A DNA stretch of 64,000 bases from Candidatus Bathyarchaeota archaeon (GCA_023131225.1 JAGLZW010000002.1:1-64000); one strand, 5' to 3'. Shown: positions 8,083 through 60,508, counted from the stretch's first letter. The notes: generated by a model not told the origin, from the sequence alone. Numbers and translations are program-made.

Positions 8083-10327
<2,245 letters not shown>

Positions 10328-10353
10328 GTTGTCACATCCGATACTTTTTTTGC

Positions 10354-10365
10354 CTATATATATAG
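10354..10365 (-). promoter_or_regulatory. TATA box for the NfnAB-like operon
   Basis: The palindromic CTATATATATAG is centred about 33 bases before the start codon at 10327, at the right distance for an archaeal TATA box with a very short leader. Confidence 0.55.
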
Positions 10366-10729
10366 AAATAGCTTACAACGTAAAACAAACTAATAAATCC
10401 ATTACAATAAAAGCTTGAATGCGTGATGCCGACGATTTGTACTTTAAATCGGCTCACGAAGAGTTATGAAAATAGGCCTAAGAGAATACAATGAATGGTG
10501 CCAAAGGACAACTGAACGGCAGAAAGCAACAGTAACCGCAAGTTTTTTGTACAACTTAGCTTGTAAAAATGATTAGTCATGTTTTTCTGGCCTTGCTTTC
10601 TGTGGGAAAAGAAACTCGCGGAACCTTGAGTCGCCGGCGCACATGCGCAAACGCCCTCTGCGTTAAGATGTTGACTCGGTTCAGGAAGGAGGGTTCTTCT
10701 CCCTGCAGAAAGCGTTTGTTTTCAAATTG
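10366..10729. other. Intergenic region with a branched inverted-repeat element
   Basis: About 360 bases between two minus-strand operons with no supported gene. Apart from the promoter of the NfnAB-like operon at its left edge, the notable part is the 10621-10682 structure described separately; the remaining sequence shows nothing I can name. Confidence 0.5.
10621..10682. other. Branched (two-hairpin) inverted-repeat element, possible small RNA
   Basis: GAACC (10621-10625) and GAGTC (10628-10632) pair with GACTC (10673-10677) and GGTTC (10678-10682), giving a 10-bp closing stem with a two-base bulge. Inside are GCGCA/TGCGC (10637-10641 with 10644-10648) and the hairpin AACGC-CCTCT-GCGTT (10650-10664). 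The GC content is higher than the flanks. It lies just downstream of the thioredoxin reductase stop, so it could be a 3' element or a separate RNA. It matches no RNA family I recognise. Confidence 0.35.
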
Positions 10730-11662
10730 TTAACTTTTATAATAATAAGGTCGTTTAATGTAACCAAAAGCTTCTGTTGCAGCAACTATAGCTTGACCAA
10801 CAGCCGTTCCAATCTGCTTTACTGACCCGTTGGTCACGTCTCCTGCAGCAAAAACACCTGAGACATTAGTTCTCTGGTGGACATCAACAATGATATAGCC
10901 TCCCTTGTCAACTTCAATCCCTGCCTCTCTGACGAGTTGGGTATTAGGGACTTCGCCGATTTGAACAAAGACGCCGTCAACCTCCACCTCACTTTCCTCT
11001 CCAGTTTTGTTGTTCTGCAAAATCACATTTTCAACCACATTGTTGCCTTTGACTTCTTTGACCACTGAATTCCAAAGAAACTCCACATTTTGCCTTTTCA
11101 AATTCTCCACAACAGTCAATTCAGCTCTTAACCGATTCCTACGATGCACAAGTTTAACTTTGGCTGCAATGTTCGAAAGATAAAGAGCTGATGTTGCAGC
11201 AGAGTTGCCACCTCCAACAACGACTACTTTTTTGTCTTTGAAAAAAGCGCCATCACACAACGCGCAGTAACTGACGCCTCTTCCTTGAAACTTCTCCTCG
11301 CCAGGCACGTCGAGTTGTCGATTGTGAGTTCCCGTGGCGATGATCACCGCAGACGCGGAATAAGTTTTTGCATTTGTTTTCACAAGCTTCTTTTCGCCTG
11401 TAATATCAAGCGACACTGCCTTTTCCAGTTCGTTTATCTGTGCTCCGAATTTCTTGCAGTGTACAGTCATTTTTTCAATCAGTTCGAGTCCGCTAATCGT
11501 TTCGAAGCCTGGATAATTCTCAACCAGTGGTGTGACTGCTGCTTCACCGCCTGGCATTTTCTCTTCAAGTATGAGCGTCTCTAGTTTGCTTCTTCCAGCA
11601 TACATTCCTGCTGTTAACCCAGCGGGACCAGCTCCTATAATAATTAGGTCCCAGTCTTCCAT
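10730..11662 (-). CDS. trxB: Thioredoxin reductase (NADPH)
   Basis: A 310-residue low-molecular-weight thioredoxin reductase. FAD site [16 protein letters not shown] near residue 10; redox-active disulfide CALCDG near residue 133; NADPH site VVVVGGGNSAATSALYLS with the phosphate-binding VHRRNRLRAE; and the C-terminal FAD motif GVFAAGDVTNGSVKQIGTAVGQA. All key residues of a working enzyme are present. It transfers electrons to thioredoxin or a glutaredoxin-like partner in the cytoplasm. It stands alone on the minus strand, diverging from the L15e gene. Confidence 0.92.
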   Translation of the reverse strand: MEDWDLIIIGAGPAGLTAGMYAGRSKLETLILEEKMPGGEAAVTPLVENYPGFETISGLELIEKMTVHCKKFGAQINELEKAVSLDITGEKKLVKTNAKTYSASAVIIATGTHNRQLDVPGEEKFQGRGVSYCALCDGAFFKDKKVVVVGGGNSAATSALYLSNIAAKVKLVHRRNRLRAELTVVENLKRQNVEFLWNSVVKEVKGNNVVENVILQNNKTGEESEVEVDGVFVQIGEVPNTQLVREAGIEVDKGGYIIVDVHQRTNVSGVFAAGDVTNGSVKQIGTAVGQAIVAATEAFGYIKRPYYYKS

Positions 11663-23250: not shown

Positions 23251-24234
23251 TTACCTTTTTCCTTTCAGTTCATTTACTTTGCTTTTTAGGGGCGAAACTA
23301 CTTTGAAGAGGTCTTCCACGACACCATAGTCAGCTACACCGAAGATAGGTGCGTGTGGATCCTTGTTTACTGCGATGATTAGATCCGAGTTTTTCATCCC
23401 GAGGACATGTTGGAAGGCGCCGCTTATTCCGAGGGCTATGTAAAGTTTCGGTTTAACAGTCTTTCCAGAACTGCCAACTTGACGGTCGTTAGGAAGCCAT
23501 CCTTTATCTACGATGGGACGTGAACAGGCTAACACAGCTCCAAGGGTTTTTGCCAGTTCTTCTATTGGAGGAATATCACTTTCGTCTTTTATCCCGCGCC
23601 CAATTCCTATGAGCACATCCGCAACTGTTATATCTACGCCGCCGGGAGGAGGCAAAACATATTTGATAAAGCGTTTTTCCGCTATTTCCTCAGAAATAGG
23701 AGAAGGAACTTCAATAATTTCTCCATTTGCAGAAGTCTTCTTTCCAACTGGGAAAGCTGCTTGTCGAACAGTCACGATGTAATTTTCTGCTTTACGAAGC
23801 ACTGCATTGACATTTACCTTGCCACCATACATCTGACGCGTCACAGTTAATGTCTCATTTTTAAATTTTAGGCCTATGCAGTCCGTTGCTAAGGGTACAT
23901 CCAACGAAACAGCGAGGCATGGCGCCAAATCCATACCAAAAGAGGTGTGCCCAATTAAGGTTAATAATGGCTTGCGTTCTCTTATTAAATTGGACAGTAT
24001 CTTCTGATAGGTTTCTGAGTTAAAATTCTCCAACTTTGCATCTTCAACCAACAGAACCTTTTTTGCGTATTCTGAAAGAGTTTTTGCTTGTTCTTTGACG
24101 TCTTTCCCGAATAGCACTACTGATAGTTCTGTGTTTGTTTTCTCAGCCAATTCCTTACCTTTGGCTAACATTTCAAAGGTTATGTCTCTGATCTGTCCTT
24201 GTCTATGTTCGCTTAGAACAAAAATTTCTTTCAT
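23251..24234 (-). CDS. etfA: Electron transfer flavoprotein alpha subunit
   Basis: A 327-residue ETF alpha subunit. N-terminal domain starts MKEIFVLSEHRQGQIRD; the C-terminal FAD domain shows the family sequence VGSSGKTVKPKLYIALGISG, then QHVLGM, and NKDPHAPIFGVADYGVVED. These residues bind the FAD that exchanges electrons with partner dehydrogenases. It follows etfB directly, the stop of one touching the start of the other, and lies in an operon with a second HdrA. With a bifurcating Hdr, the pair may pass electrons from an acyl-CoA or 2-hydroxyacid dehydrogenase, or act as a bifurcating ETF; the sequence alone does not decide. Confidence 0.92.
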   Translation of the reverse strand: MKEIFVLSEHRQGQIRDITFEMLAKGKELAEKTNTELSVVLFGKDVKEQAKTLSEYAKKVLLVEDAKLENFNSETYQKILSNLIRERKPLLTLIGHTSFGMDLAPCLAVSLDVPLATDCIGLKFKNETLTVTRQMYGGKVNVNAVLRKAENYIVTVRQAAFPVGKKTSANGEIIEVPSPISEEIAEKRFIKYVLPPPGGVDITVADVLIGIGRGIKDESDIPPIEELAKTLGAVLACSRPIVDKGWLPNDRQVGSSGKTVKPKLYIALGISGAFQHVLGMKNSDLIIAVNKDPHAPIFGVADYGVVEDLFKVVSPLKSKVNELKGKR

Positions 24235-25023
24235 CTATACTAACCCCCTTGCTTTTAGGATTTCGGCAATTCTCGCAGCAACTTCTTCTGGGCTCCCTTT
24301 TAGGAATTCTGCTTGTTTCTCTACAGGTGGCACGTACATATTTTCTATCTTTGTCCATGAACCAGCTTCCCCAACCTCATTTTCGCTTAGACCAACTTCA
24401 GCCAAGCTGAAGACTTTTATCTCCTTCTGCATTGCTTTTCTTATTCCCATAATGGAGACATAGCGAGGTTCATTAATTCCTGTTTGGATTGTAAGCACAG
24501 CTGGTAGCTTTATTTCGATAATTTCTTCTAAGCCACCTTCCAATTCACGGTTGACCTTGGCGATGTCGCCGTTCAATTCGATTTTCTTAACCATGGTGGC
24601 GTGGGGGATTCCGAGAAGTTCTGCAAGTGTTGGCCCCACTATTGCATAACCATCGTCACCTGCTTGTGCTCCCGTAAATATCATGTTGAAAGGCAAATCT
24701 TTAATGATCTTATGGAGAATTTTGGCGATGGCGTAGCCGTCAGAGCCTTCGAACTTCGGGTCGGTAAGCCTTACAGCCTTGTCTGCGCCACGGGCTAAAC
24801 ACTTCCTTAAAGTGCTGTCAGCATCCTCAGAGCCCACTGTTATGGCGGTAACGGTGCCTCCGATTTTTTCTTTTACTTGCACTGCTTCCTCTAGAGCGTA
24901 ATCATCCCATTCATTAATGTCAAAAACTAGACCACTTTTTTCTATGGTTTTTCCTGCAGAGTCAATTTTTATCTCTGCTTCCGCCGTTTCCGGAACGTGT
25001 TTCACACAAACGATTATATCCAT
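24235..25023 (-). CDS. etfB: Electron transfer flavoprotein beta subunit
   Basis: A 262-residue ETF beta subunit. The N-terminus MDIIVCVKHVPETAEAEI is characteristic, as are DINEWDDYALEEAVQVKEK, ARGADKAVRL and the nucleotide-binding stretch FTGAQAGDDGYAIVGPTLAE, followed by LPAVLTIQTGINEPRY. It is coded between hdrA2 (15 bases upstream) and etfA (immediately downstream), so the three should be co-transcribed. The close join with an HdrA gene, not a CoA dehydrogenase gene, is the informative feature. Confidence 0.93.
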   Translation of the reverse strand: MDIIVCVKHVPETAEAEIKIDSAGKTIEKSGLVFDINEWDDYALEEAVQVKEKIGGTVTAITVGSEDADSTLRKCLARGADKAVRLTDPKFEGSDGYAIAKILHKIIKDLPFNMIFTGAQAGDDGYAIVGPTLAELLGIPHATMVKKIELNGDIAKVNRELEGGLEEIIEIKLPAVLTIQTGINEPRYVSIMGIRKAMQKEIKVFSLAEVGLSENEVGEAGSWTKIENMYVPPVEKQAEFLKGSPEEVAARIAEILKARGLV

Positions 25024-25038
25024 AACGCTTTTTCTCTC

Positions 25039-27402
25039 CTAGATGCCTAGCTTCTCTTTGAGCTTATTACGTTTCTCCATGGAGAAGGGCCCGAATTTCT
25101 TAATTCTTTCTGAAAACCTTGTGAACAAGTCTGCAGCCTTTTTGTATACGGGTAGGGGGACATAGCTGTAGCGGACTCTCATGCCTTTTATTTCAAATTC
25201 TGCAAGGGAACGGTTCATTTCAATCATCCTCTTCTTGGTAAAATGCTCATCGATGTCTTCTTGTCCCTCAATCACCAATATTCCATCCGCTCCGAGGGCA
25301 AACGCATAAAGCAGATGTTTCAAACCTAAGATGGCGGTGGAAGGAACCGCTAATATTCGAATGTTTTCGGGATAATTGACACGATCAAGGCCTAGAAAGT
25401 CCATGCCAGTATATCCAACATTTTTGTCTACAAAAGCAACAATCCTAACCTCGTCAGGTTCCTTGTCCATGAGAACTCCTCGCAGATTAGCTACGATCTG
25501 CCTATTTGTTGAATTCTTAAAGTCTATGGCTTCCTTTGGGCAAACGGGAATGCATGCACCGCAGCCAGTACACATGAACGGGTTAATTTTGGCTTTTTTG
25601 GCTTCCATAATTATGGCGTTGACTGGGCAAACTTGAACGCAAAGGCCGCAGCCGTTGCATAAGGCTGTAATTACAAAGGCCTTTTCTGGGCTTGTCGTGA
25701 TGCGTTCTCCTTTCAGGAAAAGAGAAGCCTTGGCAGATGCTGCTAATGCGTCGGAAACTGTGTCGCGAACATCTTTCGGGCTTAGGGCGCATCCACACGC
25801 AAATATTCCAGTTTTAAGCGAGTCTACAGGATCGAGCTTCGGGTGTTTTTCTTGTATGAAGCCATTTTCTCCTAAGGAAAGTTTCATTTTGCCAGCGAGC
25901 TCTCCAAGTCCCACTGGTGGAACCATGGGCGTGGCCAGAGCAACCATGTCGTACTCTCTTTCTGTAACCTCGCCCATCAAAGTATCTTCCGCTAAAACAA
26001 CAAGTTTGCCATTTTTGTTCTTCCAGATTTCAGCCACTCTACCTTTAGTGAATAAAACTCCAGCTTCCTCATCTCGCCAATAAAGTTCTTCATAACCTTT
26101 GCCAGTAGCTCTAATGTCAATATAATAAACATGAACATCGATTCCAAGCATTTTCCTAAGAACGAAAGCTTGCTTTAATGCATACATGCAACATATCCGG
26201 CTGCAATATGGAATATGATTCTTGTCTCTGGAGCCTGCACAAAGCACAATCGCTATCCTTCTAACGTCGTCGCCGTTCGCCCTTTTTACATAACCTCCTG
26301 TTGGTCCAGAGGCAGAAGTTAACCTTTCCAAATCCATCATACTGATGACATCTTTGTAAATGTCATATCCGTAATTCCTAAGCATGTTCGCGTCATAGAG
26401 CTCGTAACCAGTAGCCATAATTATGGCGCCCACTTTCAGCTCGATTGTTTTTCCCTTGTCTTCCAAATTTATGGCTTTGGCTGGACAAAGCTGCTCACAT
26501 TTTAAGCATTTTGTACATGCGTCAAAATCTATTACGTAAGCTGAGGGCACTGCTTGAGGGAACTCTATGTATGCTGCTTTCCTCTGGGATATGCCTTCGT
26601 TGAACTTGTCGGACACTGTAACTGGACAAACTTTAGCGCACACACCGCAACTCCTACAAGTCTCGATATCCACGCCGCGGGGCTTCATGAAAACCCCCAC
26701 TTCATAGTTGCCTGGACGTCCACTTATATCCTTAACTTCAGCATATGTAAGCAGATTCACGTTTCGGTTTCGCCCAACCTCAGCCATTCTCGGCGTGAGT
26801 ATACACTGGGCACAGTCTAACGTTGGAAAAACTTTAGTTAATTTAGCCATGTTCCCGCCTATGCTTGACTTTCTTTCTACAACATGAACCTTAAAACCCA
26901 AATAGCCAAGCTCTAGAGCCGCAGTAATGCCAGCTATCCCCCCACCAACGACCAAAATTTCTCTTGAACATTTTTCACTTATGCTCTCTAAGGGCTCAAG
27001 TTCCAAGCTTCGCTCATAGCTGCCCCTTATTAGGCTTATAGCTTTCTTTGTGGCTGCTTCAGAGGATTGGGGACCATGAACCCACGAGGCTTGTTCTCGG
27101 ATGTTTACGAATTCAAGCATATAGGGGTTCAATCCAGCTCGCTCGAGTACGCTTTGAAAGGTTGCAAGGTGCATTCTTGGAGTGCAACTAGCGATTACAA
27201 CGCGGTCTAAGTCTTTCTTTTTTATAGCTTCAACTATCACTTCCTGGGATGGCTTTGAACAAAGATATTTTTGGTATTTTGCAGCAACAACTCCTTTCCA
27301 ATCCTTAACTGCTTCTAAAACAACTTTCACATCCACAACGTCCCCTATGTTTCCGCCGCACTCGCAAACAAAAATCCCTATTCTCGTTGGCGCCTTCTCC
27401 AT
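25039..27402 (-). CDS. hdrA: HdrA-like bifurcating flavoprotein, ETF-linked, with cysteine-free MvhD-like tail
   Basis: A 787-residue second HdrA. It keeps the N-terminal CECGGNIGDVVD motif lost in the copy at 1931, plus SCTPRMH, the FAD site GGGIAG, two 4Fe-4S motifs (CRSCGVCAKVCP, CTKCLKCEQLCP), the YCSRICC cluster, and a C-terminal ferredoxin (CNGCGLCVQVCP, CTGCGACIPVCP). The last 130 residues align with the MvhD domain of the first copy (YPENIRILAVPSTAILGLKH), but every MvhD cysteine is replaced. It can therefore not take electrons from an Mvh hydrogenase by the usual route, which fits its placement with EtfB and EtfA. Strong ribosome site GGGTGA before the ATG. Confidence 0.9.
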   Translation of the reverse strand: MEKAPTRIGIFVCECGGNIGDVVDVKVVLEAVKDWKGVVAAKYQKYLCSKPSQEVIVEAIKKKDLDRVVIASCTPRMHLATFQSVLERAGLNPYMLEFVNIREQASWVHGPQSSEAATKKAISLIRGSYERSLELEPLESISEKCSREILVVGGGIAGITAALELGYLGFKVHVVERKSSIGGNMAKLTKVFPTLDCAQCILTPRMAEVGRNRNVNLLTYAEVKDISGRPGNYEVGVFMKPRGVDIETCRSCGVCAKVCPVTVSDKFNEGISQRKAAYIEFPQAVPSAYVIDFDACTKCLKCEQLCPAKAINLEDKGKTIELKVGAIIMATGYELYDANMLRNYGYDIYKDVISMMDLERLTSASGPTGGYVKRANGDDVRRIAIVLCAGSRDKNHIPYCSRICCMYALKQAFVLRKMLGIDVHVYYIDIRATGKGYEELYWRDEEAGVLFTKGRVAEIWKNKNGKLVVLAEDTLMGEVTEREYDMVALATPMVPPVGLGELAGKMKLSLGENGFIQEKHPKLDPVDSLKTGIFACGCALSPKDVRDTVSDALAASAKASLFLKGERITTSPEKAFVITALCNGCGLCVQVCPVNAIIMEAKKAKINPFMCTGCGACIPVCPKEAIDFKNSTNRQIVANLRGVLMDKEPDEVRIVAFVDKNVGYTGMDFLGLDRVNYPENIRILAVPSTAILGLKHLLYAFALGADGILVIEGQEDIDEHFTKKRMIEMNRSLAEFEIKGMRVRYSYVPLPVYKKAADLFTRFSERIKKFGPFSMEKRNKLKEKLGI

Positions 27403-27439
27403 CTTGTCACCCTTCGTTTCCTTGACTTGTTTTTATTCA

Positions 27440-27470
27440 TACAAAGGAAAACGCTTAAAAAACCTTATGC
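27440..27470. promoter_or_regulatory. Shared divergent promoter region, hdrA2-etf operon and HdrD-like gene
   Basis: The 96 bases between the start at 27402 (minus) and the chosen start at 27499 (plus) must hold both promoters. A plus-strand TATA-like CTTAAAAAACC lies at 27453-27463, about 40 bases before the HdrD-like ATG. Divergent sharing supports joint control of the two units. Confidence 0.4.
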
Positions 27471-27498
27471 TTCATCTTATCAAAGCGAGACAAGGAAA

Positions 27499-28608
27499 AT
27501 GAATGTGCAGGAGCTCGTTCAAAAACATAAGCTGCTTGAATGTATTCACTGCGGAATATGCACCGGAAGTTGCCCAGTGTCCAGAAAGGCTAATTTAAAT
27601 GTTAGAAAGTACATGCGGGAAATTTCTATAGGTGGCAAGCTAACTATACACTCTCAAAACGAGTTATGGAGCTGTACGACCTGCGCTACATGTGGAATTC
27701 GCTGTCCAAAGGAAATAAATCCTTACGAATTTCTAATTGACATCCGAAGCCTTGCGGTAGAACAAGGGCAAATCGCCACAACACTCCGTGACGCGTTAGA
27801 GAGCACTTTTAAGAATGGTAATCCGTGGGCAAGAATAAGAAGCAAAAGGTCGGAGTGGGCACAAGAACTAGACATTAAACACGTCTCGCAAGGTGCAGAG
27901 TTCCTTTATTTTGTAGGCTGCACACCGGCTTATGATCCTCGAGTTCAAAAGGTGGCGAGAAACTTGGTGAAGTGCTTCGAAAAAGCAGGAGTCAACTTTG
28001 GAACATTAGGAGACGAAGAAAACTGCTGTGGAAGCGAAGTCTATGGTATGGGAGAAAAGGGCCTATTCGAACTTCTAATAGAAGAAAACGTTAAGTTATT
28101 CAAGAAGTATGATGTAAAGCACCTTGTCACAAGCTGTCCCCACTCATACAACGCCTTCAAAAACAGATATGGAGAAACAAGCTTCGAGGTTCTGCATCAC
28201 ACACAGTTACTTGCAGACTTAATCGACAAAGGTAATCTCACATTTTCACGAGAGATAAACAAAACAGTCATCTATCACGATCCCTGCTTCCTAGGAAAAC
28301 AGAATGGCGTATACGACGAGCCCAGAAGAGCTATCGAAAACATTCCAGGCGTAAAACTTGTAGAGTTCGATCGTTCTAGGGAGCGAAGCTTGTGCTGCGA
28401 AGGCGGCGGAGGAAGAATGTGGATAGACATTCCGGGAGAACGTCTCGCCGAAATCCGCGTCAAGGACGCAGCCGACTCGGGAGCGGAGATATTAGTTGTT
28501 GCGTGTCCTTTCTGTCTCCTAACCTTTGAGGATGCCGTTAAAACAACAGGCCTGGAAGGAAAAATTCAAGTCCTAGATATAGCAGAGCTACTTTCGCAAG
28601 CCATATAA
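27499..28608 (+). CDS. HdrD-like (HdrC-HdrB fusion) iron-sulfur oxidoreductase
   Basis: A 369-residue fusion of an HdrC-like N-terminus and an HdrB-like C-terminus. The N-terminal ferredoxin motifs are CIHCGICTGSCPV and CTTCATCGIRCP. Two cysteine-rich CCG domains follow: FVGCTPAYDPRV, then ENCCGSEVYG and TSCPHS; and HDPCFLGKQ, then CCEGGGG and ACPFC. I place the start at ATG 27499, since earlier in-frame TTG codons fall inside the promoter. It diverges from hdrA2-etfBA and is the likely catalytic disulfide (or other thiol) reductase partner of that HdrA. LutA/GlpC-type proteins are related alternatives. Confidence 0.85.
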   Translation: MNVQELVQKHKLLECIHCGICTGSCPVSRKANLNVRKYMREISIGGKLTIHSQNELWSCTTCATCGIRCPKEINPYEFLIDIRSLAVEQGQIATTLRDALESTFKNGNPWARIRSKRSEWAQELDIKHVSQGAEFLYFVGCTPAYDPRVQKVARNLVKCFEKAGVNFGTLGDEENCCGSEVYGMGEKGLFELLIEENVKLFKKYDVKHLVTSCPHSYNAFKNRYGETSFEVLHHTQLLADLIDKGNLTFSREINKTVIYHDPCFLGKQNGVYDEPRRAIENIPGVKLVEFDRSRERSLCCEGGGGRMWIDIPGERLAEIRVKDAADSGAEILVVACPFCLLTFEDAVKTTGLEGKIQVLDIAELLSQAI

Positions 28609-28848: not shown

Positions 28849-29454
28849 CTATGGCTGAATGCCGAGTTTTTGGTAGATAACTGTTCGATTTTCTTCTGTT
28901 TTCTTTTTAATGTCTTCGAAGAGATTGTTTCCGTGAGAGTCTATCGCGACTGTTAGGGGACCAAATTCTTCAGTCTTTAATATCCATAGGGCTTCGGGCA
29001 TGCCCAAGTCGATCCATTCGACATTTTTTACTTTTTTTATTGCTTTTGCGGCGAGGACTGCGGCTCCGCCCGTGAAGGCTCCATAGATGGCTCCGTATTT
29101 CCGCATGGCGTCGGTGGTGCGTTTACCCATGCCTCCTTTACCAATGATGACGCGGGTTTTGAAGTTCTTGATGAATTCGTCTTCGAAAATGTCCATTCGT
29201 GTGCTAGTTGTGGGGCCAGCTGCCACTATGTTCCATTTGTCTCCTTCCTTTTTGACTATGGGACCGCAGTGAAAAACTGCCAAACCTTCTAAGTTGATTG
29301 GGAGTTGTTTTCCTTCTTTATGGAATTGCAGGGCTCTTTTGTGAGCTTGGTCGCGGGCTGTTACTATAGTTCCTGTGATGTATACAACATCGTTGACTTT
29401 CAATTTTCGCACATATTCTTCGGAGATTGGGGTGATTAATTTGTATGTTGCCAA
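28849..29454 (-). CDS. Fumarate hydratase (class I, two-subunit), beta subunit
   Basis: A 201-residue beta (C-terminal) subunit of the iron-sulfur class I fumarase or tartrate dehydratase family. It opens with YKLITPISEEYVRKLKVND and keeps the family blocks ITGTIVTARDQAHKRAL, FHCGPIV, GPTTSTRMD and VIGKGGMGKRT. It starts seven bases after the alpha-subunit stop, so the two are one operon. Fumarate and malate interconversion for the citric acid cycle is the expected role; L-tartrate dehydratase is a less likely alternative given no other tartrate genes. Confidence 0.9.
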   Translation of the reverse strand: MATYKLITPISEEYVRKLKVNDVVYITGTIVTARDQAHKRALQFHKEGKQLPINLEGLAVFHCGPIVKKEGDKWNIVAAGPTTSTRMDIFEDEFIKNFKTRVIIGKGGMGKRTTDAMRKYGAIYGAFTGGAAVLAAKAIKKVKNVEWIDLGMPEALWILKTEEFGPLTVAIDSHGNNLFEDIKKKTEENRTVIYQKLGIQP

Positions 29455-29461
29455 TTCTTTT

Positions 29462-30358
29462 TCACCTCATTTCATGCGTTAAGTATTCAACACGTCCATC
29501 TGGATGAATGCGCGCTGTTGCCCTTCTTGCCGCCCAGCAGTTGAAGGCTACTGCCGCTGGATAGGATGCTGGGTGTCTTGCAGCGTAGTCTATGTTTACA
29601 CCTAGGACGGTGAACTTGCCGCCTAGTCCCATTGGTCCTATACCTGTTTGGTTTGCGGCTTCCAGTAGTTCTTTTTCAAGTTTGGCTATTTCGGGGTCTG
29701 AGTTGGGGTGGTTAAGGGGGCGCAGTAACGCTTTTTTTGCCATTTTCATGGAGATATCTGTTCCTCCTCCGATTGCCACGCCTAAAATGTTTGGGGGGCA
29801 CGGTTTTGAGCCTGCTTTGATTACGGAGTCTATGACAAATTTCTTTAGCCCTTTGATACCTTCTCCAGGCACTAGCATACCTGTAACGCAGACGTTTTCT
29901 GAGCCACCGCCTTTCGGTAGCACAGTGATTTCAAGGGTGTTGCCGGGTACTATTTCCCAGTTTATGTAGGGGATGTTTCTACCTGTGTTGTTGCCTGTGT
30001 TTTTCTGTTTGAATGGGTCTACAGCATTTGGTCTCAAGGGCACTTCGTTTGTTGCTCTTTTGGTGGCGTTGCGTAAAGCGTTTTCAATTTTGTCTAGATT
30101 TTTGACTTCTGCTCCGGCTTTTATATAGAAGATTATTGTGCCGGTGTCTTGGCACATGGGTGTGCGGGTTCTTTCGGCTAGCGCCACGTTGTCAAGGATT
30201 GCTTTGAGTTGTGTTTTCCCCGCTTCACTTGTTTCTTCTTGGTAAGCTTTTTGGAGGGCTTCTTTAACATCTTTTGGTAATTCTGTAACTGCTAAGCGTA
30301 ACAGGTTAACTGCTACGTTTTCTACTGTTTGTTCTAAACTCAAATGGTTTTCCTCCAA
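29462..30358 (-). CDS. Fumarate hydratase (class I, two-subunit), alpha subunit
   Basis: A 298-residue alpha (N-terminal) subunit carrying the 4Fe-4S cluster. The three candidate cluster cysteines occur in TRTPMCQDTGTIIFYIKAG near residue 60, GSENVCVTGMLVPGEG, and SKPCPPNILGVAIGGGTD. Sequence blocks VPLRPNAVDPF and GPMGLGGKFTVLGVNIDYAARHPASYP (split here as GPMGLGGKFTVLG and HPASYP) match the family. Together with the beta subunit downstream it makes an oxygen-sensitive hydratase common in anaerobic archaea. Confidence 0.9.
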   Translation of the reverse strand: MEENHLSLEQTVENVAVNLLRLAVTELPKDVKEALQKAYQEETSEAGKTQLKAILDNVALAERTRTPMCQDTGTIIFYIKAGAEVKNLDKIENALRNATKRATNEVPLRPNAVDPFKQKNTGNNTGRNIPYINWEIVPGNTLEITVLPKGGGSENVCVTGMLVPGEGIKGLKKFVIDSVIKAGSKPCPPNILGVAIGGGTDISMKMAKKALLRPLNHPNSDPEIAKLEKELLEAANQTGIGPMGLGGKFTVLGVNIDYAARHPASYPAAVAFNCWAARRATARIHPDGRVEYLTHEMR

Positions 30359-47173: not shown

Positions 47174-47333
47174 GAACTCCGAGTAGTCGGCAAACCATGA
47201 TAAAAAGGCTTTCAGTGATTGCAGACCTGTAAAAACCTCTATATCAACTTGGCAGTAGAAAAACGCACTTACAAAATACGCAAAATTTTTAAGCTCACAA
47301 ATATACTTTTAGATTATCAAAAAAGTGGTAATT

Positions 47334-48650
47334 ATGGAAAGAAAAAACGTTTTAGCGATTGGTTTAGCGTTAATTATCGGCGTAGTAATCGGTGCACCCG
47401 TCGGGTACTATATCGCTCCAAAACCAACTACCCCAGCAACACCTACAACCTTAGAATTCTGGGCCCCTTTTGCAGGGGAAGAAAGCGCTTTATGGTTCTG
47501 GCAAAATGCAAGCGACGCATTCTACAATGAAACAGGCATAGAAGTCAAAATCACGTTTTACACAGGCTCAGAATATATGACAAAACTAACATCGTCTTTC
47601 GCAGCTGGGGTTCCACCTGACCTATTCACTAACAAAGGTGGAGGAGAACTTAAGGGATATGTTAATGAAAACGTTGTAGAAGATATAAGCGATCTCTTAG
47701 CTGAAGATTGGGCCTTAGCTCAGATCCCAGAATCTATAAGATCATCAGTCACTGTGAACGGTAAAGAGTATGCCCTTCCATATGAACTAACAGTTGTCGG
47801 TATTTTGATCAATAGCCTACTTTTTGATCAAGCAAGTGTTGCCGTCCCTTCTATAGAGACAGGTTGGACATGGACTGAATTTATAGCGGCATGTAATGCA
47901 CTAAAGGTCGCTGGAACAATCCCTGTTGCAATGAGTGGCAAGGAAGATTGGTCACTTGAGTTCCCTACAGTTTATATTCAAGAAAGGCTTAATGGGCCAG
48001 ATGCGTTTTTCGATGCGTATGATCGTAAAATAAGTTTTTTTGATCAATACAACAATACGTTTGATAAGGTTCAGGAATGGGTTGACGGAGACTACTTCCA
48101 ACTAGGCTGGGAAACAGCTGGTTACATGGATGCATACCAAGCGTTTTCAACAGGGCAAGCGGCAATGTGGATACAGGGCACATGGGCTGTTGGAATGTGT
48201 TTAGGTATAGAAGGGCTTGACTTGGACGCTGTTCCATGGCCATATTTTTCAGAGGAATCCAATGCAAGCGTAAAGGATTTGGTTTTTGGAGGAGGCACCT
48301 TTATCGGGGTAGCTGCTGATAGTGCATACATTGATGAGGCTAAAGCCTTCTTAAGATTCTGCTCTAGACCGGAATGGCAAATAAAAATGATCCAATCGAT
48401 TGGAACCCCCATAGCACAGAAAATAATGTTGCCCCCAGACATTTTTGACCCAACTACCGAAAAGTTCATAGACATGGTAGCGAGAGCTTCGCGGTTACAA
48501 GGAACATATGCATATCAAGTATCCCCACAATTTAAAGGTACCATGATGGATCAATTTGCTCTAATTTGGGCACTTCAAACAACACCCGAAACTGCAGCGA
48601 CAACCATCGAAACAAATGCGGTAGAATTACTGGGTCCAGTAACTGGTTAG
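47334..48650 (+). CDS. ABC transporter solute-binding protein (family 1, sugar-type)
   Basis: A 438-residue surface protein with a membrane-anchor signal (VLAIGLALIIGVVIGAPVGYY), a Thr/Pro-rich linker (KPTTPATPTT) and the family-1 solute-binding fold beginning LEFWAPFAGEES. I start at ATG 47334; TATA at 47301 suggests a leaderless message. It is very like the binding protein at 59121-60428: both contain DISDLLAEDWALAQI and GYMDAY. Yet it stands apart from transporter genes and precedes two MazG-like genes in the same direction. It probably feeds the permeases coded at 57343-61603. Confidence 0.88.
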   Translation: MERKNVLAIGLALIIGVVIGAPVGYYIAPKPTTPATPTTLEFWAPFAGEESALWFWQNASDAFYNETGIEVKITFYTGSEYMTKLTSSFAAGVPPDLFTNKGGGELKGYVNENVVEDISDLLAEDWALAQIPESIRSSVTVNGKEYALPYELTVVGILINSLLFDQASVAVPSIETGWTWTEFIAACNALKVAGTIPVAMSGKEDWSLEFPTVYIQERLNGPDAFFDAYDRKISFFDQYNNTFDKVQEWVDGDYFQLGWETAGYMDAYQAFSTGQAAMWIQGTWAVGMCLGIEGLDLDAVPWPYFSEESNASVKDLVFGGGTFIGVAADSAYIDEAKAFLRFCSRPEWQIKMIQSIGTPIAQKIMLPPDIFDPTTEKFIDMVARASRLQGTYAYQVSPQFKGTMMDQFALIWALQTTPETAATTIETNAVELLGPVTG

Positions 48651-49856: not shown

Positions 49857-49963
49857 AACAGTCATAACACCTTTTTAGATTGTGGATTCAAAAGTCCCCC
49901 GCATGAAGCAGAGAGTAAAAAGTCTTTGACTTCTCATTTTTTTGTGTGTGAAGTGTGCTGAAA

Positions 49964-50875
49964 ATGATTTTAAATGGTGTTGAAGTGGAGGAAACTTTTG
50001 CAGAGCTTTGGGAATTAAAAATAGCTAGACTGCTTGTCACGGCTATCTCAAGAGACTTGGCGTTACGAGCTGCTTATCAAGCCACCGGCTTCGCGTTTAG
50101 TATCGCGATATGTCCTGTTCAATCGGGAATAGAAAGATTCTCTCCTTCGGAGGTAAATCCAGACGGTAGACCTGGTGTGATTATGCAGTTTTCGGTTCCT
50201 TCTGGCTCCAAGTATGGCGTTGAACGGTTAAAGGAACAGCTAATTGCAAGAGCTCTAACGCTTTCTATGGTTCCTACTGCTTCTCTCTTCGACTTTATGC
50301 CATTTGAAGCTATAACGGAGACTTTGCCTGTAGGCGAGGCAATTAGAAAACATGGAGAAGGCTACGAAAAGGAACTAATGATCGGGAAACATCGAGTTAT
50401 TTGTATTCCAGTCACAAGCGGAAAATTTAACGTGGAACGAACCGTTGGAGTCACAACTGGTTTAGATGGATTGTTCGTTATTATGGCTGAAAACCAAGCC
50501 ATAGCGGTATCAGCCGCCAATGCTGCTTGGGATGCTATGAAATTGATTGAAGGAGTGTGTCCCTACGGTTTAGGCATGGACAACGCAATTAAAAAGGGGT
50601 CTAATAGGTATACAGATATCATTGCAAGTACTCATGACTTGTTTTGCCCCACCATTCAAAACATAGTTCCAGGCTCTAAGGTGCCCATAGGCGTTCAATC
50701 CATTGTGACGGTTGTCTTTATGGGTTTAAACGCTAGTGAGATTAGAAGAGCTACGCATGAAGGTATTGTCGCAGCTACGAAAATCGAGGGCGTTAAGAGG
50801 ATTTCAGCTTATAATTTCGGAGGAAAAATGGGGAGCCACAAATTACATCTTTCTGACATCCTCAAGATGGAATAA
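49964..50875 (+). CDS. ftr: Formylmethanofuran:H4MPT formyltransferase homologue, copy 1
   Basis: A 303-residue Ftr family protein. ILNGVEVEETFAELW at the start, PDGRPGVIMQF near residue 70, LFCPTIQNIVPGSKVPIGV near 230 and the ending VKRISAYNFGGKMGSHKLHL are Ftr signatures. Ftr moves a formyl group between methanofuran and tetrahydromethanopterin. Sequence between the signatures differs much from methanogen Ftr, so the true donor may differ. I use ATG 49964; the GTG three codons upstream is less likely. It faces the Mch homologue at 50918-51937. Confidence 0.85.
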   Translation: MILNGVEVEETFAELWELKIARLLVTAISRDLALRAAYQATGFAFSIAICPVQSGIERFSPSEVNPDGRPGVIMQFSVPSGSKYGVERLKEQLIARALTLSMVPTASLFDFMPFEAITETLPVGEAIRKHGEGYEKELMIGKHRVICIPVTSGKFNVERTVGVTTGLDGLFVIMAENQAIAVSAANAAWDAMKLIEGVCPYGLGMDNAIKKGSNRYTDIIASTHDLFCPTIQNIVPGSKVPIGVQSIVTVVFMGLNASEIRRATHEGIVAATKIEGVKRISAYNFGGKMGSHKLHLSDILKME

Positions 50876-50917
50876 CTTACTGTTGTCTACACGTACATTA
50901 TGGGCTTCATCTTCGAA

Positions 50918-51937
50918 TTATAACACACTATAGCTTGAGCCCTGCACCAGCGATTTTTTGATAATGTCTGCTCTTAATCGTCCTGCTCTGCATAAAGTGC
51001 CTGTTCGAAGATCGTTAAGGGTTACTTCTGAGGGGGCATAATTCCCAAAATCGACTTTGTAAAAATTTTTGCCTGCCTGTTCGTAGAGTTCACCGTATAA
51101 CTTTCCGTAGTCTGGTGAGCGATTCTCTATAACCATCTCCTTCGCTAATTTGCATACATCCTCCTCTTCTTGGGTTTCGATGGTGTAGAAAGTTCTCAAG
51201 CCATACATCATTAAGTCATTAGCCATGCCCATTCCCACAGTGCTGTTAGGGTGAACAGGTGCTATAGGAGCTATACCAGCCCCTGATTTCAGTTTTGTTA
51301 TGTCGTAATCCATGTAGAATAACGTGTAAACCCCGTTTTCGACGCAACGTCCTGCAATTTGAATGTTTCCTGCGAGACAGTTTGTGGGAACAATAAGAAT
51401 GTACACTCTTTTCATATCTATTCCTGTTTCTTTAGATACATGCGTCACAATGCTTTCTGTTGGAAATTTGCTCATTGGAAACTTGTCACATTGAATTACT
51501 AAAATAGCCACGTCCGCTTTTTCTTCATGTTTTAAGGAATCAAAGACTTCAGCAGGAGTCTTCGCCAAAGCTCGAGCCGGTCCGGACCCGATAGCCATAC
51601 CTAATCCAAGAAGATTCTTGGCAACCTCTTTTGGGATTCTCCAACCTCCCATTTGGCTTCCCATAGTAGCAAGAGCGGGGTGATCTGTTGTTACATGCAT
51701 GGCAGGAAGGACGAATTCGCCAAAGTCCATGAACGTGACTTTGGCTTGTCCGATGCCGCCTAGAGTAACCTCTGTTACGCATTTTCCAGCTTCGAATCCG
51801 CCAGGGACCTCCATTCCACAATCTATTATAGTTGCACCGTTTTTCGTTTCGTGTACGAAAATGCCTATTTCGTCAGCTTCTTTGATCATGTATTTTACAA
51901 TGGGAAGCGCAGATTTGTTCAAGCTTATTTTCGTCAA
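50918..51937 (-). CDS. mch: Methenyl-H4MPT cyclohydrolase homologue, copy 1
   Basis: A 339-residue Mch family protein. Recognised from GATIIDCGMEVPGGFEAGK, VTEVTLGGIG, GSGPARALAKTPAEVFD, GNIQIAGRCVENG, GIAPIAPVHPNS and the ending EVTLNDLRTGTLCRAG. Mch interconverts methenyl- and formyl-H4MPT. A minus-strand TATA box (GTTATATAG, 51956-51964) lies about 23 bases upstream, so the message is probably leaderless. It diverges from the MtaD-like deaminase gene and is convergent with ftr copy 1. Confidence 0.88.
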   Translation of the reverse strand: MTKISLNKSALPIVKYMIKEADEIGIFVHETKNGATIIDCGMEVPGGFEAGKCVTEVTLGGIGQAKVTFMDFGEFVLPAMHVTTDHPALATMGSQMGGWRIPKEVAKNLLGLGMAIGSGPARALAKTPAEVFDSLKHEEKADVAILVIQCDKFPMSKFPTESIVTHVSKETGIDMKRVYILIVPTNCLAGNIQIAGRCVENGVYTLFYMDYDITKLKSGAGIAPIAPVHPNSTVGMGMANDLMMYGLRTFYTIETQEEEDVCKLAKEMVIENRSPDYGKLYGELYEQAGKNFYKVDFGNYAPSEVTLNDLRTGTLCRAGRLRADIIKKSLVQGSSYSVL

Positions 51938-53447: not shown

Positions 53448-53661
53448 ACGTTTCCATAAATAATCACAGTGCGTAGTTAAGGTAATCTGATCGCGCTTTT
53501 TGCGCTATGTAACGAAAATACGAGCTATTTTTAATCAGAGTTTTTGGATAAAGGTAATTCAGGCACTAAGCATCATCTTTGTGACTTACTGTGCATGCAC
53601 AAAGTTTTTAGAAAAGCCTTTACTCATCTTTGTCATCTTCTCATTCAAAGAGGACACAAAA

Positions 53662-55065
53662 TTGGCAAAAAAAAGGTTGAAAGAACAACTGACAACGATT
53701 GTTGGTTCAGAGAATTTTTCGGACAATTTTCTAGACAGATTAACATATTCAAAAAGTAGCTCTTTCGAAGAAGCTGGAGTTCCCTCATATGTAGTTAGAC
53801 CCAGAAATACAGAGCAAGTTGCGGAGATTCTGAAAATAGCAAACGAGTATGAAACTCCTGTGTACGTGTGGGGAAGAGGAACTATATTCATTGCGTCAGG
53901 AGTTCAGGAAAACTGCGTACTGATTGACATGACTGGAATGAATAATATATTAAATATTGATGAGGAAACAATGTCCGTTACGGTTGAGGCAGGAGCCATA
54001 TGGGATGCCTTGAATACTGAGTTGAAAAAGAAAAAGTGGGAACTCTCCATCCAAGGTCCAGGTAGCCTAGTATCCTGCACTGTCGGTGGATCACTTGCTG
54101 CTAGTATGGTCCCTCACGGCTTAACCGGAGAGGGAACAACTGGAGAGAACGTTCTCAACTTGGAAGTCGTTTTACCGAGTGGAGAGATAATCAAAACAGG
54201 TTCCGCTGCAAATCCACAAGGCATACCCTTTGAAAGATACTGCAACGGTCCAGACGTCGCCGGACTTTTCATAGGGTCTTGCGGTACTTTAGGTATCATA
54301 ACAAAAGCTACATTAAAAATCCAAAGGATGCCTGAAGCTGAGGAATTCCTTTGTTATAGCTTTGACGATTTGAGAAAGGCATTTAAGATCGCTTTGAAGT
54401 TGCTTCAACGACGCTGTACTCGATTTCTTGTGGTTTGTCAAGGAGATCTTCCAGTTAAGGCTGTAGCTTTAATGCATATTATTACAACTGGAGGAAAGGA
54501 GGAAGTCGAAATAAAGATCAAAACCATCAAGTCAATATGTGAAACATATGGAGGAAGAAAAATAGACAACACGGGAACCAGAAACTACTGGAAAACGCAT
54601 AATGTTATGTATTCATGGCTCAGATGGAAAGATCCAAAGACATATTATGCTCGTAAGGGAATTCCTTACTTCTGCCCCGAAATCTTTGGATTCCTTCCAT
54701 TGCCGAAACTCGTTGATATAAGTGAAGCTTTTTGGAATTACTGGAGTGAGCATGAGACGCAAATAAAGAAGCACAATGCCCTTGTCAAGGGTTTTGACGT
54801 GTATTTTTCAAAAAATGGGGGATATCTGTGGATTGATACGCTCTATTCTTATGTAGATAAAGAGGCCTTCGAGTTTGGCTTACAAGTTCAAAAAGACCTT
54901 TACGAGATGTTGCTTGACTATGGAGGCGCTCCGGGTACTGTGGGTAGCGGCGAAATAGCTGAGCGTATCATGTCGAGGCTGGTTGGTTACCACGATTTTT
55001 TAAGAAAATTGAAGAAGGCTATCGATCCGAATCGCATTTTAAACCCAAATGTTTTGGATCTGTAG
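53662..55065 (+). CDS. FAD-linked oxidase, GlcD/lactate dehydrogenase type
   Basis: A 467-residue FAD-binding oxidoreductase. PCMH-type FAD domain: YVVRPRNTEQVAEILKIANE, then VWGRGTIF, QGPGSLVSCTVGGSLA and GSCGTLGIITKATL. C-terminal domain ends IDPNRILNPNVLDL. Start: the open frame runs upstream, but TTG 53662 has AGAGG eight bases before it and gives the usual GlcD length; the earlier part looks noncoding. It precedes the GlcF-like protein by 10 bases. The pair should oxidise a 2-hydroxyacid. Confidence 0.85.
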   Translation: MAKKRLKEQLTTIVGSENFSDNFLDRLTYSKSSSFEEAGVPSYVVRPRNTEQVAEILKIANEYETPVYVWGRGTIFIASGVQENCVLIDMTGMNNILNIDEETMSVTVEAGAIWDALNTELKKKKWELSIQGPGSLVSCTVGGSLAASMVPHGLTGEGTTGENVLNLEVVLPSGEIIKTGSAANPQGIPFERYCNGPDVAGLFIGSCGTLGIITKATLKIQRMPEAEEFLCYSFDDLRKAFKIALKLLQRRCTRFLVVCQGDLPVKAVALMHIITTGGKEEVEIKIKTIKSICETYGGRKIDNTGTRNYWKTHNVMYSWLRWKDPKTYYARKGIPYFCPEIFGFLPLPKLVDISEAFWNYWSEHETQIKKHNALVKGFDVYFSKNGGYLWIDTLYSYVDKEAFEFGLQVQKDLYEMLLDYGGAPGTVGSGEIAERIMSRLVGYHDFLRKLKKAIDPNRILNPNVLDL

Positions 55066-55075
55066 GTGAGTTGTT

Positions 55076-56215
55076 ATGTTACTTGAGAAGTATACGAATG
55101 ATTTGTATAAGTGTATCAGATGTGGATTCTGCTTTGATCTAAGCTGGCTAGGACAGTACCGTATGTGCCCGATAAACGAAATCAAGGGATTTCAATCTTA
55201 CAGCGCCAAAGGAAAACTAATTTTAGCTATAGCACTCCTTGAGGGAAAAGTAGAGTTCAACGAAGATCTCTCAAAACACGTTTTCATGTGCACCGATTGC
55301 GGTGCATGTGAGCAAAACTGTTTCTTCTCTCTAGAACTAAGCAACATCTTCGACGCGTTGAAAGCAGACGTGGTTGCACACGGATTAACAATGAAAGAAC
55401 ACGCTTCGATGCTTGAGAAAACCCGGAAATACGATAATATATTTGGGCAACCACACGAAAAGAGACTACACTGGCTCTCTGGAGAAATCAACAAAAAAGC
55501 TGAAGCAGTTTATTTCGTCGGGTGTACAACTGCGCTTGCCAGAACAAGGATAGCCAAAGCCAATTATGAAATTATGAAACACTCAGATCTAGATTTTACA
55601 ATTCTCAAAAACGAAAAATGTTGCGGTTTTCCGCTGTTGTCTATTGGACAAGTAGAAACTGCAAAAAAGCTTGCTGAGTACAATATTCAAGAAATAGAAA
55701 AAATCGGAGCCCAGAGGGTAGTGTTTTCGTGTCCGGGATGTTATAGAATGTTCAAAAAAGAATATCCCAAATTAGTTGGGCGACTACCATTTGAGGCAGT
55801 TCACACAACCGAGATTTACGAGGAACTTATGGACAATGAAGACTTAGTTCCAAAGAAAAAAATCACCCGCAAAGTTACTTATCATGATCCTTGCCATCTT
55901 GGTAGGCACATAGGCTTGTATGAACCCCCAAGAAAGATCCTTGAAGAGATTCCAGGTTTAATGATGACTGAGATGACTAGAAACAGAGAGTATGCCTATT
56001 GTTGTGGAGCTGGAGGAGGTCTGCCCCAAGCCTTTCCAGAAATTTCGACTAGTATCGCGGTGAATAGACTAAAGGAGGCAGAAGAGACAGGGGCGCAGGT
56101 GCTTGCTTCGTCGTGTCCAGCGTGTAGCTCAAACTTCATGTTAGCAAGATATCGGTCTAAGGTAAAGTTGGATATTAGAGATGTGGCGGAACTGATCGTG
56201 GAAACATTAAAATAA
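55076..56215 (+). CDS. GlcF/HdrD-like iron-sulfur protein with CCG domains
   Basis: A 379-residue protein. An N-terminal double ferredoxin (CIRCGFCFDLSWLGQYRMCP and CTDCGACEQNCF, the first with an unusual wide spacing) is followed by two CCG domains: YFVGCTTALART, EKCCGFPLL and SCPGCYR; HDPCHLGRH, YCCGAGGG and SCPACSS. The set is as in GlcF, LutA and HdrD. It takes electrons from the GlcD-like flavoprotein coded before it and may pass them to a quinone or to a thiol. Third HdrB/HdrD-like protein of the window. Confidence 0.85.
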   Translation: MLLEKYTNDLYKCIRCGFCFDLSWLGQYRMCPINEIKGFQSYSAKGKLILAIALLEGKVEFNEDLSKHVFMCTDCGACEQNCFFSLELSNIFDALKADVVAHGLTMKEHASMLEKTRKYDNIFGQPHEKRLHWLSGEINKKAEAVYFVGCTTALARTRIAKANYEIMKHSDLDFTILKNEKCCGFPLLSIGQVETAKKLAEYNIQEIEKIGAQRVVFSCPGCYRMFKKEYPKLVGRLPFEAVHTTEIYEELMDNEDLVPKKKITRKVTYHDPCHLGRHIGLYEPPRKILEEIPGLMMTEMTRNREYAYCCGAGGGLPQAFPEISTSIAVNRLKEAEETGAQVLASSCPACSSNFMLARYRSKVKLDIRDVAELIVETLK

Positions 56216-57342: not shown

Positions 57343-58200
57343 CTATGTCTTCGCACCAATTCCTGCAGCTATTCCTTTCTTGATCTTTTCAGAGAAAAAC
57401 ATGTAAAGTATAAGCGGTGGAATAGTTGAGATGATTATTCCGGCGGCTAATGGACCGTATTGAATTAGATATTGGCCTCTAAATATGAAAAGGCCTAGTG
57501 GCAACGTCATCATGTCAGTTGATCTGAGGAAGACTAGGGGATAGAGAAAATCGTTCCATATGAATATGGCTTCTAAACTCATAGCTATCAAAACAGTTGG
57601 CAGGGCTAAAGGTAATGCTATTCTCCAATACGTTTGAAACGTTGACAGTCCATCTATCTTCGCTGCATCTTCTAATGATGGAGGAATAGACAGAAATCCT
57701 AGTCTTGCTATGAAAATCGAGTAGGGTAGAGCAGTAGCGACATAAACTAATATTAGGCCAAGATGGGAGTCAATTAACCCTAAATTTTTGAGTAGAACAT
57801 ACAACGGGACTATGATTACTTGAGGGGCAACATACATGCCAGCTAGGAGAAAATAAAAGACTGTTCTTTTACCACGATATTCTGCTCTGCCCAGCGCATA
57901 TGCAGCCATAGGTGAAATCACAAATAGAATTATTATACTTCCAGCGGTTATTATTAAACTGTTTCTCAAGCATACCGCCATATTACCGCTACTTAAGGCC
58001 CACTCATAATTTGACCAATCTAGGTTAGTGGGAGGACCCCACACGTTAGCAAATAGCTCCTGATTAGTTTTAAAAGATGTGAAAAAAGCCCAAATAAGAG
58101 GATAGACTGTTGCAATGGCCCACATTATTAAGACAGCGATACCAATCGTGCGAGTGAACTTATTTCTGAGCCAGTTCCATGGACTATACTTTGAACTCAT
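57343..58200 (-). CDS. ABC transporter permease, MalG type
   Basis: A 285-residue inner-membrane permease with six predicted helices. The ATPase-contact EAA loop is LEDAAKIDGLSTFQTYWRIA near residue 180. It is the last gene of a four-gene minus-strand operon (ATPase, binding protein, MalF-type permease, this). A carbohydrate or similar polar molecule is usual for the family, but the substrate is not shown by sequence. Confidence 0.9.
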   Translation of the reverse strand: MSSKYSPWNWLRNKFTRTIGIAVLIMWAIATVYPLIWAFFTSFKTNQELFANVWGPPTNLDWSNYEWALSSGNMAVCLRNSLIITAGSIIILFVISPMAAYALGRAEYRGKRTVFYFLLAGMYVAPQVIIVPLYVLLKNLGLIDSHLGLILVYVATALPYSIFIARLGFLSIPPSLEDAAKIDGLSTFQTYWRIALPLALPTVLIAMSLEAIFIWNDFLYPLVFLRSTDMMTLPLGLFIFRGQYLIQYGPLAAGIIISTIPPLILYMFFSEKIKKGIAAGIGAKT

Positions 58201-58209
58201 ATGTTCTAG

Positions 58210-59100
58210 TCACCTATCCGTGTGTAACAGTTTCAGTTGAATTATTACAAGTGAAAGGCCCATAACAATCAAATAAAGCGCTACGGCAGAAGCGTATCCA
58301 GCCTTCCAAAAAGTAAAGGCGTACCTGTAAAGATATAACGCGATTACATCAGTGAGACGCCCTGGACCACCCCCCGTCAGAACGTAAACCAATTCAAACG
58401 TCTTGAAAGAAGCAGAAATTGTTATAACAAGCGATAAAGCAAGCGCAGCCTTAGTCATTGGAATTACTACGTGTCTGATTTTTTGAAGGTCAGAAAGCCC
58501 GTCTACCTTCATTGAATCATAAATAGATGGAGAAATTGTTCGTAAACCTGCCGAGTAAATAATAGCGTATAGTCCCACTCCGTGCCAGTTAGCCGTTACT
58601 AGAACTGAGAGAAGTGCTGTGCTCTGATTTGATAACCATGCTCTAGTTAACGAATGTAAACCGAGAAAGTCTAATAAGCTATTCAACAAACCAAACGAAG
58701 GATTATAAATCCAAGTCCACATTACACCCACTGAAACAAACGATAAGATAATTGGTATTAAGGCTATGGACAAAAAGATGCCCCCTACTCGCTGATATTT
58801 TCGCGCCAACCAAGCCAAACTGAAACCGAATATAAATTGGCTGACAGCATTCACACCAGTTATTACAAAAGTATTCCTTAACGCAACATGGAATTGCGGA
58901 TCTACAACAATACTAAAGTAGTTTTTAAGACCGATAAACGTTTTGACGGGAGATACACCCGACCATTGATATAGACCAAATGAAAGCCCGTTAATTACAG
59001 GATAAATAAAAAAGAGGACATATAGGAAGACCGTCGGTAACAGCAATAGATATAGCGCTATAACTTTTCTAGTTTCAGCTTTGATTCGCAGCTTAGTCAT
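58210..59100 (-). CDS. ABC transporter permease, MalF type
   Basis: A 296-residue permease with six helices. The coupling loop is PSIYDSMKVDGLSDLQKIRH, slightly degenerate compared with the MalG-type partner. The N-terminal helix (VIALYLLLLPTVFLYVLFFI) follows a short charged start. It is coded nine bases before the MalG-type gene and 20 bases after the binding protein. Confidence 0.9.
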   Translation of the reverse strand: MTKLRIKAETRKVIALYLLLLPTVFLYVLFFIYPVINGLSFGLYQWSGVSPVKTFIGLKNYFSIVVDPQFHVALRNTFVITGVNAVSQFIFGFSLAWLARKYQRVGGIFLSIALIPIILSFVSVGVMWTWIYNPSFGLLNSLLDFLGLHSLTRAWLSNQSTALLSVLVTANWHGVGLYAIIYSAGLRTISPSIYDSMKVDGLSDLQKIRHVVIPMTKAALALSLVITISASFKTFELVYVLTGGGPGRLTDVIALYLYRYAFTFWKAGYASAVALYLIVMGLSLVIIQLKLLHTDR

Positions 59101-59120
59101 TTTTCATCGCATACGCAGTT

Positions 59121-60428: not shown

Positions 60429-60508
60429 ATTTTATTTTTCCCCTTTTAGGATTCCTATTCGACTTTGAGCGTTATGAAGAAATGACTATATAATGCTTAC
60501 TATACTTT

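Follow-up and report, generated by a model that had tools for sequence, protein, structure and literature searches.

The DNA analysed here, a window of 64,000 nucleotides from Candidatus Bathyarchaeota archaeon (GCA_023131225.1 JAGLZW010000002.1:1-64000), carries a gene unit in which the two subunits of an electron-transferring flavoprotein (ETF), encoded by etfB and etfA, lie beside hdrA and a divergent hdrD, the genes of a heterodisulfide reductase (Hdr) core. We suggest, with a probability of about 0.55, that these proteins form a soluble ETF-HdrD-HdrA hub in which electrons pass from an acyl-CoA dehydrogenase to ETF, HdrD and the flavin of HdrA, to be confurcated there with those of ferredoxin. 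The conserved gene set probably moves electrons from fatty-acid breakdown via ETF into a remodelled Hdr core, which suggests a soluble, quinone-free route for their disposal. Bifurcation by HdrA, EtfD and the pairing of ETF with acyl-CoA dehydrogenase (AcaD) are known already; of their combination, and of an HdrA-fused MvhD domain without cysteines, we found no account among open-licence papers. The host genome (G000; 1.9 Mb, archaeal, 50 contigs) has Candidatus Bathyarchaeota/Bathyarchaeia as its closest named relatives.

As a preliminary description of this DNA had it, hdrA, etfB and etfA nearly touch on one strand, and an HdrC-HdrB-type gene (hdrD) shares the promoter region of the divergent hdrA. 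We find hdrA separated from etfB by 15 bp, etfB and etfA abutting, and a gap of 96 bp with a conserved AT-rich promoter-like element between hdrA and hdrD. The span given there for the unit, 25039–28608, leaves out etfB and etfA (23251–25023). For hdrD we prefer the conserved ATG at 27499 as the start, the listed TTG at 27427 being less likely. No hydrogenase gene is present in the hdrA-etfB-etfA/hdrD unit.

HdrA matches NCBIfam NF040770 across its full length (833.5 bits, below the 1100-bit cut-off of F420H2-dependent HdrA2) and aligns to the HdrA of structure 8rvu [E 2.5e-186] with all core cluster cysteines in register. Its flavin and iron-sulfur sites had been described as complete. This holds for the flavin adenine dinucleotide (FAD) domain and for the cysteines of the N-terminal cluster, the inserted ferredoxin, the FAD-domain cluster and the C-terminal ferredoxin, and the core cysteines are invariant across 29 homologs; it fails for the MvhD domain, which possesses none of the five cysteines of canonical MvhD and no cysteine at all. 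In the alignment to canonical MvhD, CNWC is replaced by DKNV, MCSG by PSTA and GCH..DCHY by EGQ..DEHF. The remaining FlpD/MvhD domains of the host genome contain 4–6 cysteines each, and the HdrA of the Mvh-Hdr operon at the left end of the window keeps those of its MvhD domain, which bears out the difference between the two systems noted previously.

None of the 22 named archaeal loci of the ETF-linked type has a cysteine in the tail of its HdrA, and in bacterial ETF-linked HdrA the entire MvhD domain is absent. The cysteine-free domain is folded and under purifying selection. Its ratio of non-synonymous to synonymous substitution (dN/dS) is 0.02–0.11, similar to that of the HdrA core (one saturated pair being undefined), and the AF2 model (pLDDT 85 overall) shows it confidently folded; together these rule out a domain in decay. 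The clade of ETF-linked HdrA is monophyletic (SH-aLRT 100) and sits on a long stem; the tree was a quick one and carried long-branch warnings.

HdrD finds its best match, in sequence [E 1.7e-54, 9ojn] as in fold [E 7.7e-20, TM 0.79, against about 0.5 for HdrB], in EtfD of Mycobacterium smegmatis. Its His215 occupies the position of EtfD His583, which completes cluster D2 and renders that cluster non-catalytic (PMC13083937), and histidine stands there in 34 of 34 ETF-linked HdrD sequences, where disulfide-cleaving HdrB has its catalytic cysteine. The first CCG site (C-CC-CPHS) is one cysteine short, a residue always missing in the same 34 sequences, and the second is complete; HdrB has two C-CC-CxxC noncubane sites of five cysteines each. 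HdrD thus has the CCG relay of EtfD with the histidine that completes cluster D2, but consists of 4Fe-4S and CCG domains only (369 aa) and has no membrane heme b domain. With TfrB it shares residues 125–488 only, lacking the N-terminal [2Fe-2S] domain. The histidine and the lost cysteine disfavour HdrD as an equivalent of heterodisulfide-cleaving HdrB, one complete CCG site remaining. Since the host genome's TfrB shares the EtfD-type histidine, this residue does not mark partners of ETF exclusively.

The best PDB matches of EtfA are CarE, LctC and EtfA, and the gene is conserved in 11 genomes of the family; the closest to EtfB is W3A1 ETF (1o94_C). Bifurcating ETFs (group 2) are marked by an invariant glycine at position 123 of A. 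fermentans EtfB (PMC12630350). Here that position is taken by Asp124, and aspartate is found there in 70 of 72 related EtfB. Because of this replacement EtfB is predicted to bind adenosine monophosphate (AMP) and the ETF to act as a canonical carrier; on the same ground bifurcation within the ETF was rejected. The host genome also encodes a second ETF, whose EtfB does have the bifurcating-type glycine and whose genes adjoin those of an acyl-CoA dehydrogenase and a GltD-HdrA fusion. This second ETF-Hdr system (L053, contig C13, 6438–14289) is composed of the GltD-HdrA fusion (1124 aa), HdrC, HdrB, the acyl-CoA dehydrogenase and divergent etfBA. We did not find an ETF:quinone oxidoreductase (ETF-QO, FixC) in the host genome. 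Its lone FixX-like match is a ferredoxin whose gene adjoins one resembling that of aldehyde ferredoxin oxidoreductase, with no FixC alongside, and ETF-QO was therefore dropped as an outlet for the ETF.

The gene order is widespread rather than peculiar to this contig. Twelve of 13 genomes of the window's family have this ETF, and the linkage between hdrD and hdrA-etfBA is kept in ten of the twelve, allowing for contig ends. The exceptions (G006 and G007) belong to one genus, in which the same etfBA adjoins a different, canonical HdrA. In G007 (L048 9355–13792) this HdrA is followed by a separate cysteine-bearing MvhD and HdrD; in G006 (L047 5293–10588), which has an assembly gap, MvhGA hydrogenase genes adjoin the ETF and the canonical HdrA. 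Across an order-wide sample of 163 genomes this HdrA occurs in 42, this EtfB in 58 and both in 40, so that EtfB accompanies HdrA in 40 of 42 genomes (Fisher p ~1e-21, a value which relatedness inflates). Rearranged but still adjacent, the genes recur in Nezhaarchaeota (L106), in a Thermoprotei genome (L122) and in G259 (L210). Given this co-occurrence and an adjacency which survives several rearrangements, the association of hdrA with the ETF is not due to chance, and both lend support to the earlier suggestion that electrons flow between ETF and Hdr with no hydrogenase involved.

An acyl-CoA dehydrogenase had been put forward as the partner of the ETF. Its gene (acaD) directly follows etfA in most other Bathyarchaeia, and the host genome encodes an 84%-identical ortholog on contig C33 within a beta-oxidation operon (CoA ligase, 3-hydroxyacyl-CoA dehydrogenase, enoyl-CoA hydratase and two acyl-CoA dehydrogenases); on these grounds we regard the proposal as supported. 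Bacterial loci from several phyla have the order acaD-hdrD-etfB-etfA-(acaD)-hdrA. For the other partner then considered, a 2-hydroxyacid dehydrogenase, no linked gene was found in the unit. A GlcD-like (FAD_binding_4) gene followed by a CCG/HdrD-like gene lies apart at 53500–56215, a separate GlcD-HdrD-type candidate for 2-hydroxyacid oxidation.

In the window's family the neighbours are of another kind, and they went unmentioned in the preliminary description, as did the EtfD-like nature of HdrD. Co-directional hdrD-tfrA-tfrB occurs in G001, G002, G004 and G011, the contig of G009 begins inside tfrA, and a fumarase adjoins hdrD or tfrAB in the family. Since tfrAB follows hdrD, succinate/fumarate is a possible second client of the unit; the fumarase is probably metabolic context rather than a member of the complex. 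One might go further and propose that in this family the unit serves fumarate/succinate, TfrAB exchanging electrons with HdrD-HdrA as a bifurcating fumarate reductase or confurcating succinate dehydrogenase and the ETF being a carrier between modules. This accords with the fumarase, with interspersed tfrAB-flxABCD-hdrABC genes already known (PMC6315080), and with two loci of another lineage (L207 1064–8492 and L208 1834–9325) where an HdrA with cysteine-free MvhD belongs to an operon of HdrC, HdrB, a 2Fe-2S protein, a TfrA-like flavoprotein, HdrA and malic enzyme, divergent from a fumarase; that operon possibly encodes an HdrA-coupled succinate/fumarate enzyme. We nevertheless consider the proposal unlikely for the unit as such, for the tfrAB of the window genome lies outside it, on contig C7, and in most Bathyarchaeia having the unit it is acaD, not tfrAB, which adjoins it.

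Based upon the potentials of crotonyl-CoA (~-10 mV), ferredoxin (~-500 mV) and heterodisulfide (-145 mV), the hub may be pictured as follows. The acyl-CoA dehydrogenase, encoded elsewhere in the beta-oxidation operon, would reduce the canonical, non-bifurcating ETF at about -10 mV, and succinate is perhaps a further electron source. The ETF would pass its electrons to HdrD, whose CCG and cubane clusters presumably relay them in the manner of EtfD instead of reducing a disulfide; HdrD would hand them on to the flavin of HdrA. Electrons at -10 mV alone cannot reduce carriers at the level of H2, NAD or F420, hence HdrA would confurcate them with those of reduced ferredoxin onto a mid-potential carrier. 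The MvhD domain, its cluster lost, would be closed to hydrogenase electrons and survive as a docking or structural domain. The HdrB-side branch of HdrA, here the HdrD relay, is a better fit for a high-potential ETF than is the MvhD side at mid-potential. Confurcation is the simplest scheme; the reverse direction, bifurcation to enoyl-CoA or fumarate, is on the sequence evidence equally allowed. The links of this scheme rest on gene context and residues, from which we infer the complex, the order of carriers, the direction and the identity of the mid-potential carrier.

One could instead imagine that the ETF replaces the hydrogenase/MvhD input, docking on the degenerate MvhD domain or the C-terminal ferredoxin of HdrA to reduce its flavin, while HdrD forms the high-potential branch and reduces a disulfide as in HdrABC-MvhAGD. 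The adjacency of hdrA and etfB, the conservation of an MvhD domain without a cluster, and the resemblance of an HdrA ferredoxin domain to the ferredoxin fused to the ETF subunit CarE [E 3.9e-8, 6fah_A] all point this way. It appears a rather unlikely arrangement, however, as the mid-potential site calls for electrons less positive than those of the ETF, near -10 mV, HdrD has the EtfD-type histidine and is one CCG cysteine short, bacterial HdrA does without the MvhD domain, and in bacteria and f4 archaea the nearest neighbour of the ETF is hdrD, not hdrA.

Several observations weigh against an ETF-HdrD-HdrA hub fed by fatty-acid breakdown. In the window's family acaD has left the unit, whose neighbour there is tfrAB (five genomes, counting that of G009). 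The genus of G006 and G007 combines the same ETF with a canonical HdrA plus cysteine-bearing MvhD, in several f4 genomes hdrD-etfBA-acaD stands without an adjoining HdrA, and G141 (95% complete) has an HdrA-HdrD pair and no ETF. Furthermore, a second set of cysteine-free HdrA is paired with HdrCB and no ETF, so that the loss of the MvhD cysteines is not an ETF-specific trait. The G141 pair, together with many f5 genomes where HdrA-HdrD has no adjacent ETF, might be taken to mean that these genes are mere neighbours, ETF and acyl-CoA dehydrogenase using another outlet and HdrD-HdrA being a separate disulfide reductase. We think this improbable in view of the strong co-occurrence of HdrA and EtfB, their repeated return to adjacency in several lineages and the failure to find an ETF-QO. 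It is conceivable, and we offer it tentatively, that HdrA with a cysteine-free MvhD constitutes an uncharacterised class of enzymes which confurcate electrons at a flavin and serve couples near 0 mV, namely acyl-CoA/enoyl-CoA via ETF-HdrD and succinate/fumarate via TfrA-HdrBC.

Compared with HdrABC-MvhAGD of methanogens (5odc, 8rvu), the HdrA core is 41–47% identical and agrees in its Fe-S cysteines and FAD domain, and HdrD is homologous to HdrC/HdrB; unlike that complex the unit is ETF-linked and without a hydrogenase, its MvhD lacks the [2Fe-2S] ligands and an EtfD-like HdrD takes the place of HdrB. With EtfD, the ETF:menaquinone oxidoreductase (EMO; 9ojn, PMC13083937), it shares the sequence and fold of HdrD, the histidine at the His583 position and the pairing with ETF and acyl-CoA dehydrogenase, but HdrD has no membrane domain or heme part, is linked to HdrA, and retains CC in the first CCG site where EtfD has CT, having lost a different cysteine. 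The bifurcating Bcd-EtfAB, CarCDE and LctBCD likewise couple ETF and an acyl-CoA or other dehydrogenase to ferredoxin; EtfB here is without their invariant glycine, and any bifurcating flavin would be that of HdrA. HdrA modules with alternative input or beside fumarate reductase/succinate dehydrogenase genes are known as FlxABCD-HdrABC, TfrAB-Flx-Hdr of the reductive tricarboxylic acid cycle cluster (PMC6315080) and HdrA2B2C2 with SdhA of Culexarchaeia (PMC9723716), but neither paper describes such an ETF unit or a cysteine-free MvhD. Desulfobacterium autotrophicum (PMC2702500) has a soluble HdrD beside HdrA (hdrA4-hdrD2) and an Hdr-type protein beside etfBA (hdrF3-etfBA); there, however, the ETF adjoins a membrane-bound HdrF and the HdrA lies at a separate locus.

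Table 1. Genes and elements of the ETF-Hdr unit and the adjoining fumarase, in window coordinates.
Feature	Position	Strand	Remarks
etfA, ETF alpha subunit	23251–24234	-	327 aa; PF01012 + PF00766; without fused ferredoxin domain
etfB, ETF beta subunit	24235–25023	-	262 aa; PF01012; canonical (AMP-type) signature
hdrA, HdrA2-type core with fused C-terminal MvhD/FlpD domain	25039–27402	-	787 aa; NF040770
Cysteine-free MvhD (FlpD) domain of HdrA	25090–25443 (aa 654–771)	-	PF02662, 75 bits over cut-off
AT-rich promoter-like element, hdrA/hdrD gap	27434–27465	.	(ac)agaggaaaacgcttaaaaaa, nearly invariant across six family genomes
hdrD, soluble HdrC-HdrB-type CCG protein, EtfD-like	27499–28608	+	369 aa; two CCG domains + two 4Fe-4S motifs
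Fumarase, FumC-type + FumN-type subunits	28849–30358	-	PF05683 + PF05681; beyond hdrD

A number of further genes deserve mention. One Bathyarchaeia family has a candidate link to NAD(P)H: downstream of hdrD, at L066, L074 and L083, lie genes for a thioredoxin-reductase-like protein and a polyferredoxin-FlpD protein, along with NfnSL-like genes; the window has NfnSL and a thioredoxin-reductase-like gene at 8083–11662. GcvH-like lipoyl proteins are encoded beside units with cysteine-free HdrA at L210 (9246–9680, immediately downstream of etfB-etfA-hdrA-hdrD) and L209 (5817–6269), and similar proteins have been noted beside Hdr in Culexarchaeia (PMC9723716). GcvH was rejected as a carrier for the unit, being Hdr-adjacent only at these two loci and lying elsewhere in the window genome. 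On contig C42 of the host genome (L056 7469–8702) two genes encode fusions in which a GcvH-like domain, its lipoyl lysine apparently replaced, follows a ribbon-helix-helix-like N-terminus; they adjoin NfnL-HdrA-MvhD-HdrCB and possibly specify a regulator responding to redox or lipoyl state. The window also contains two pairs of the tetrahydromethanopterin C1 enzymes Ftr and Mch (49955–51937 and 61795–63800), an unusual duplication, in an equally unusual context of ABC-transporter-like genes (47325–48650 and 57343–61603).

Acyl-CoA dehydrogenases deliver electrons near -10 mV, and genome papers on uncultured archaeal fermenters often leave their disposal as "ETF and Hdr". The unit offers a concrete and testable route made up of a canonical ETF, a relay resembling EtfD and an HdrA with a disabled hydrogenase inlet. 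Its sequence marker, a cysteine-free MvhD with a histidine in the CCG site, separates this class from the Hdr linked to hydrogenase or formate, which annotation pipelines lump together with it. If HdrA with a cysteine-free MvhD do form a class of confurcating enzymes, they would enable anaerobic archaea to carry out beta-oxidation and succinate oxidation in the cytoplasm and without quinones.

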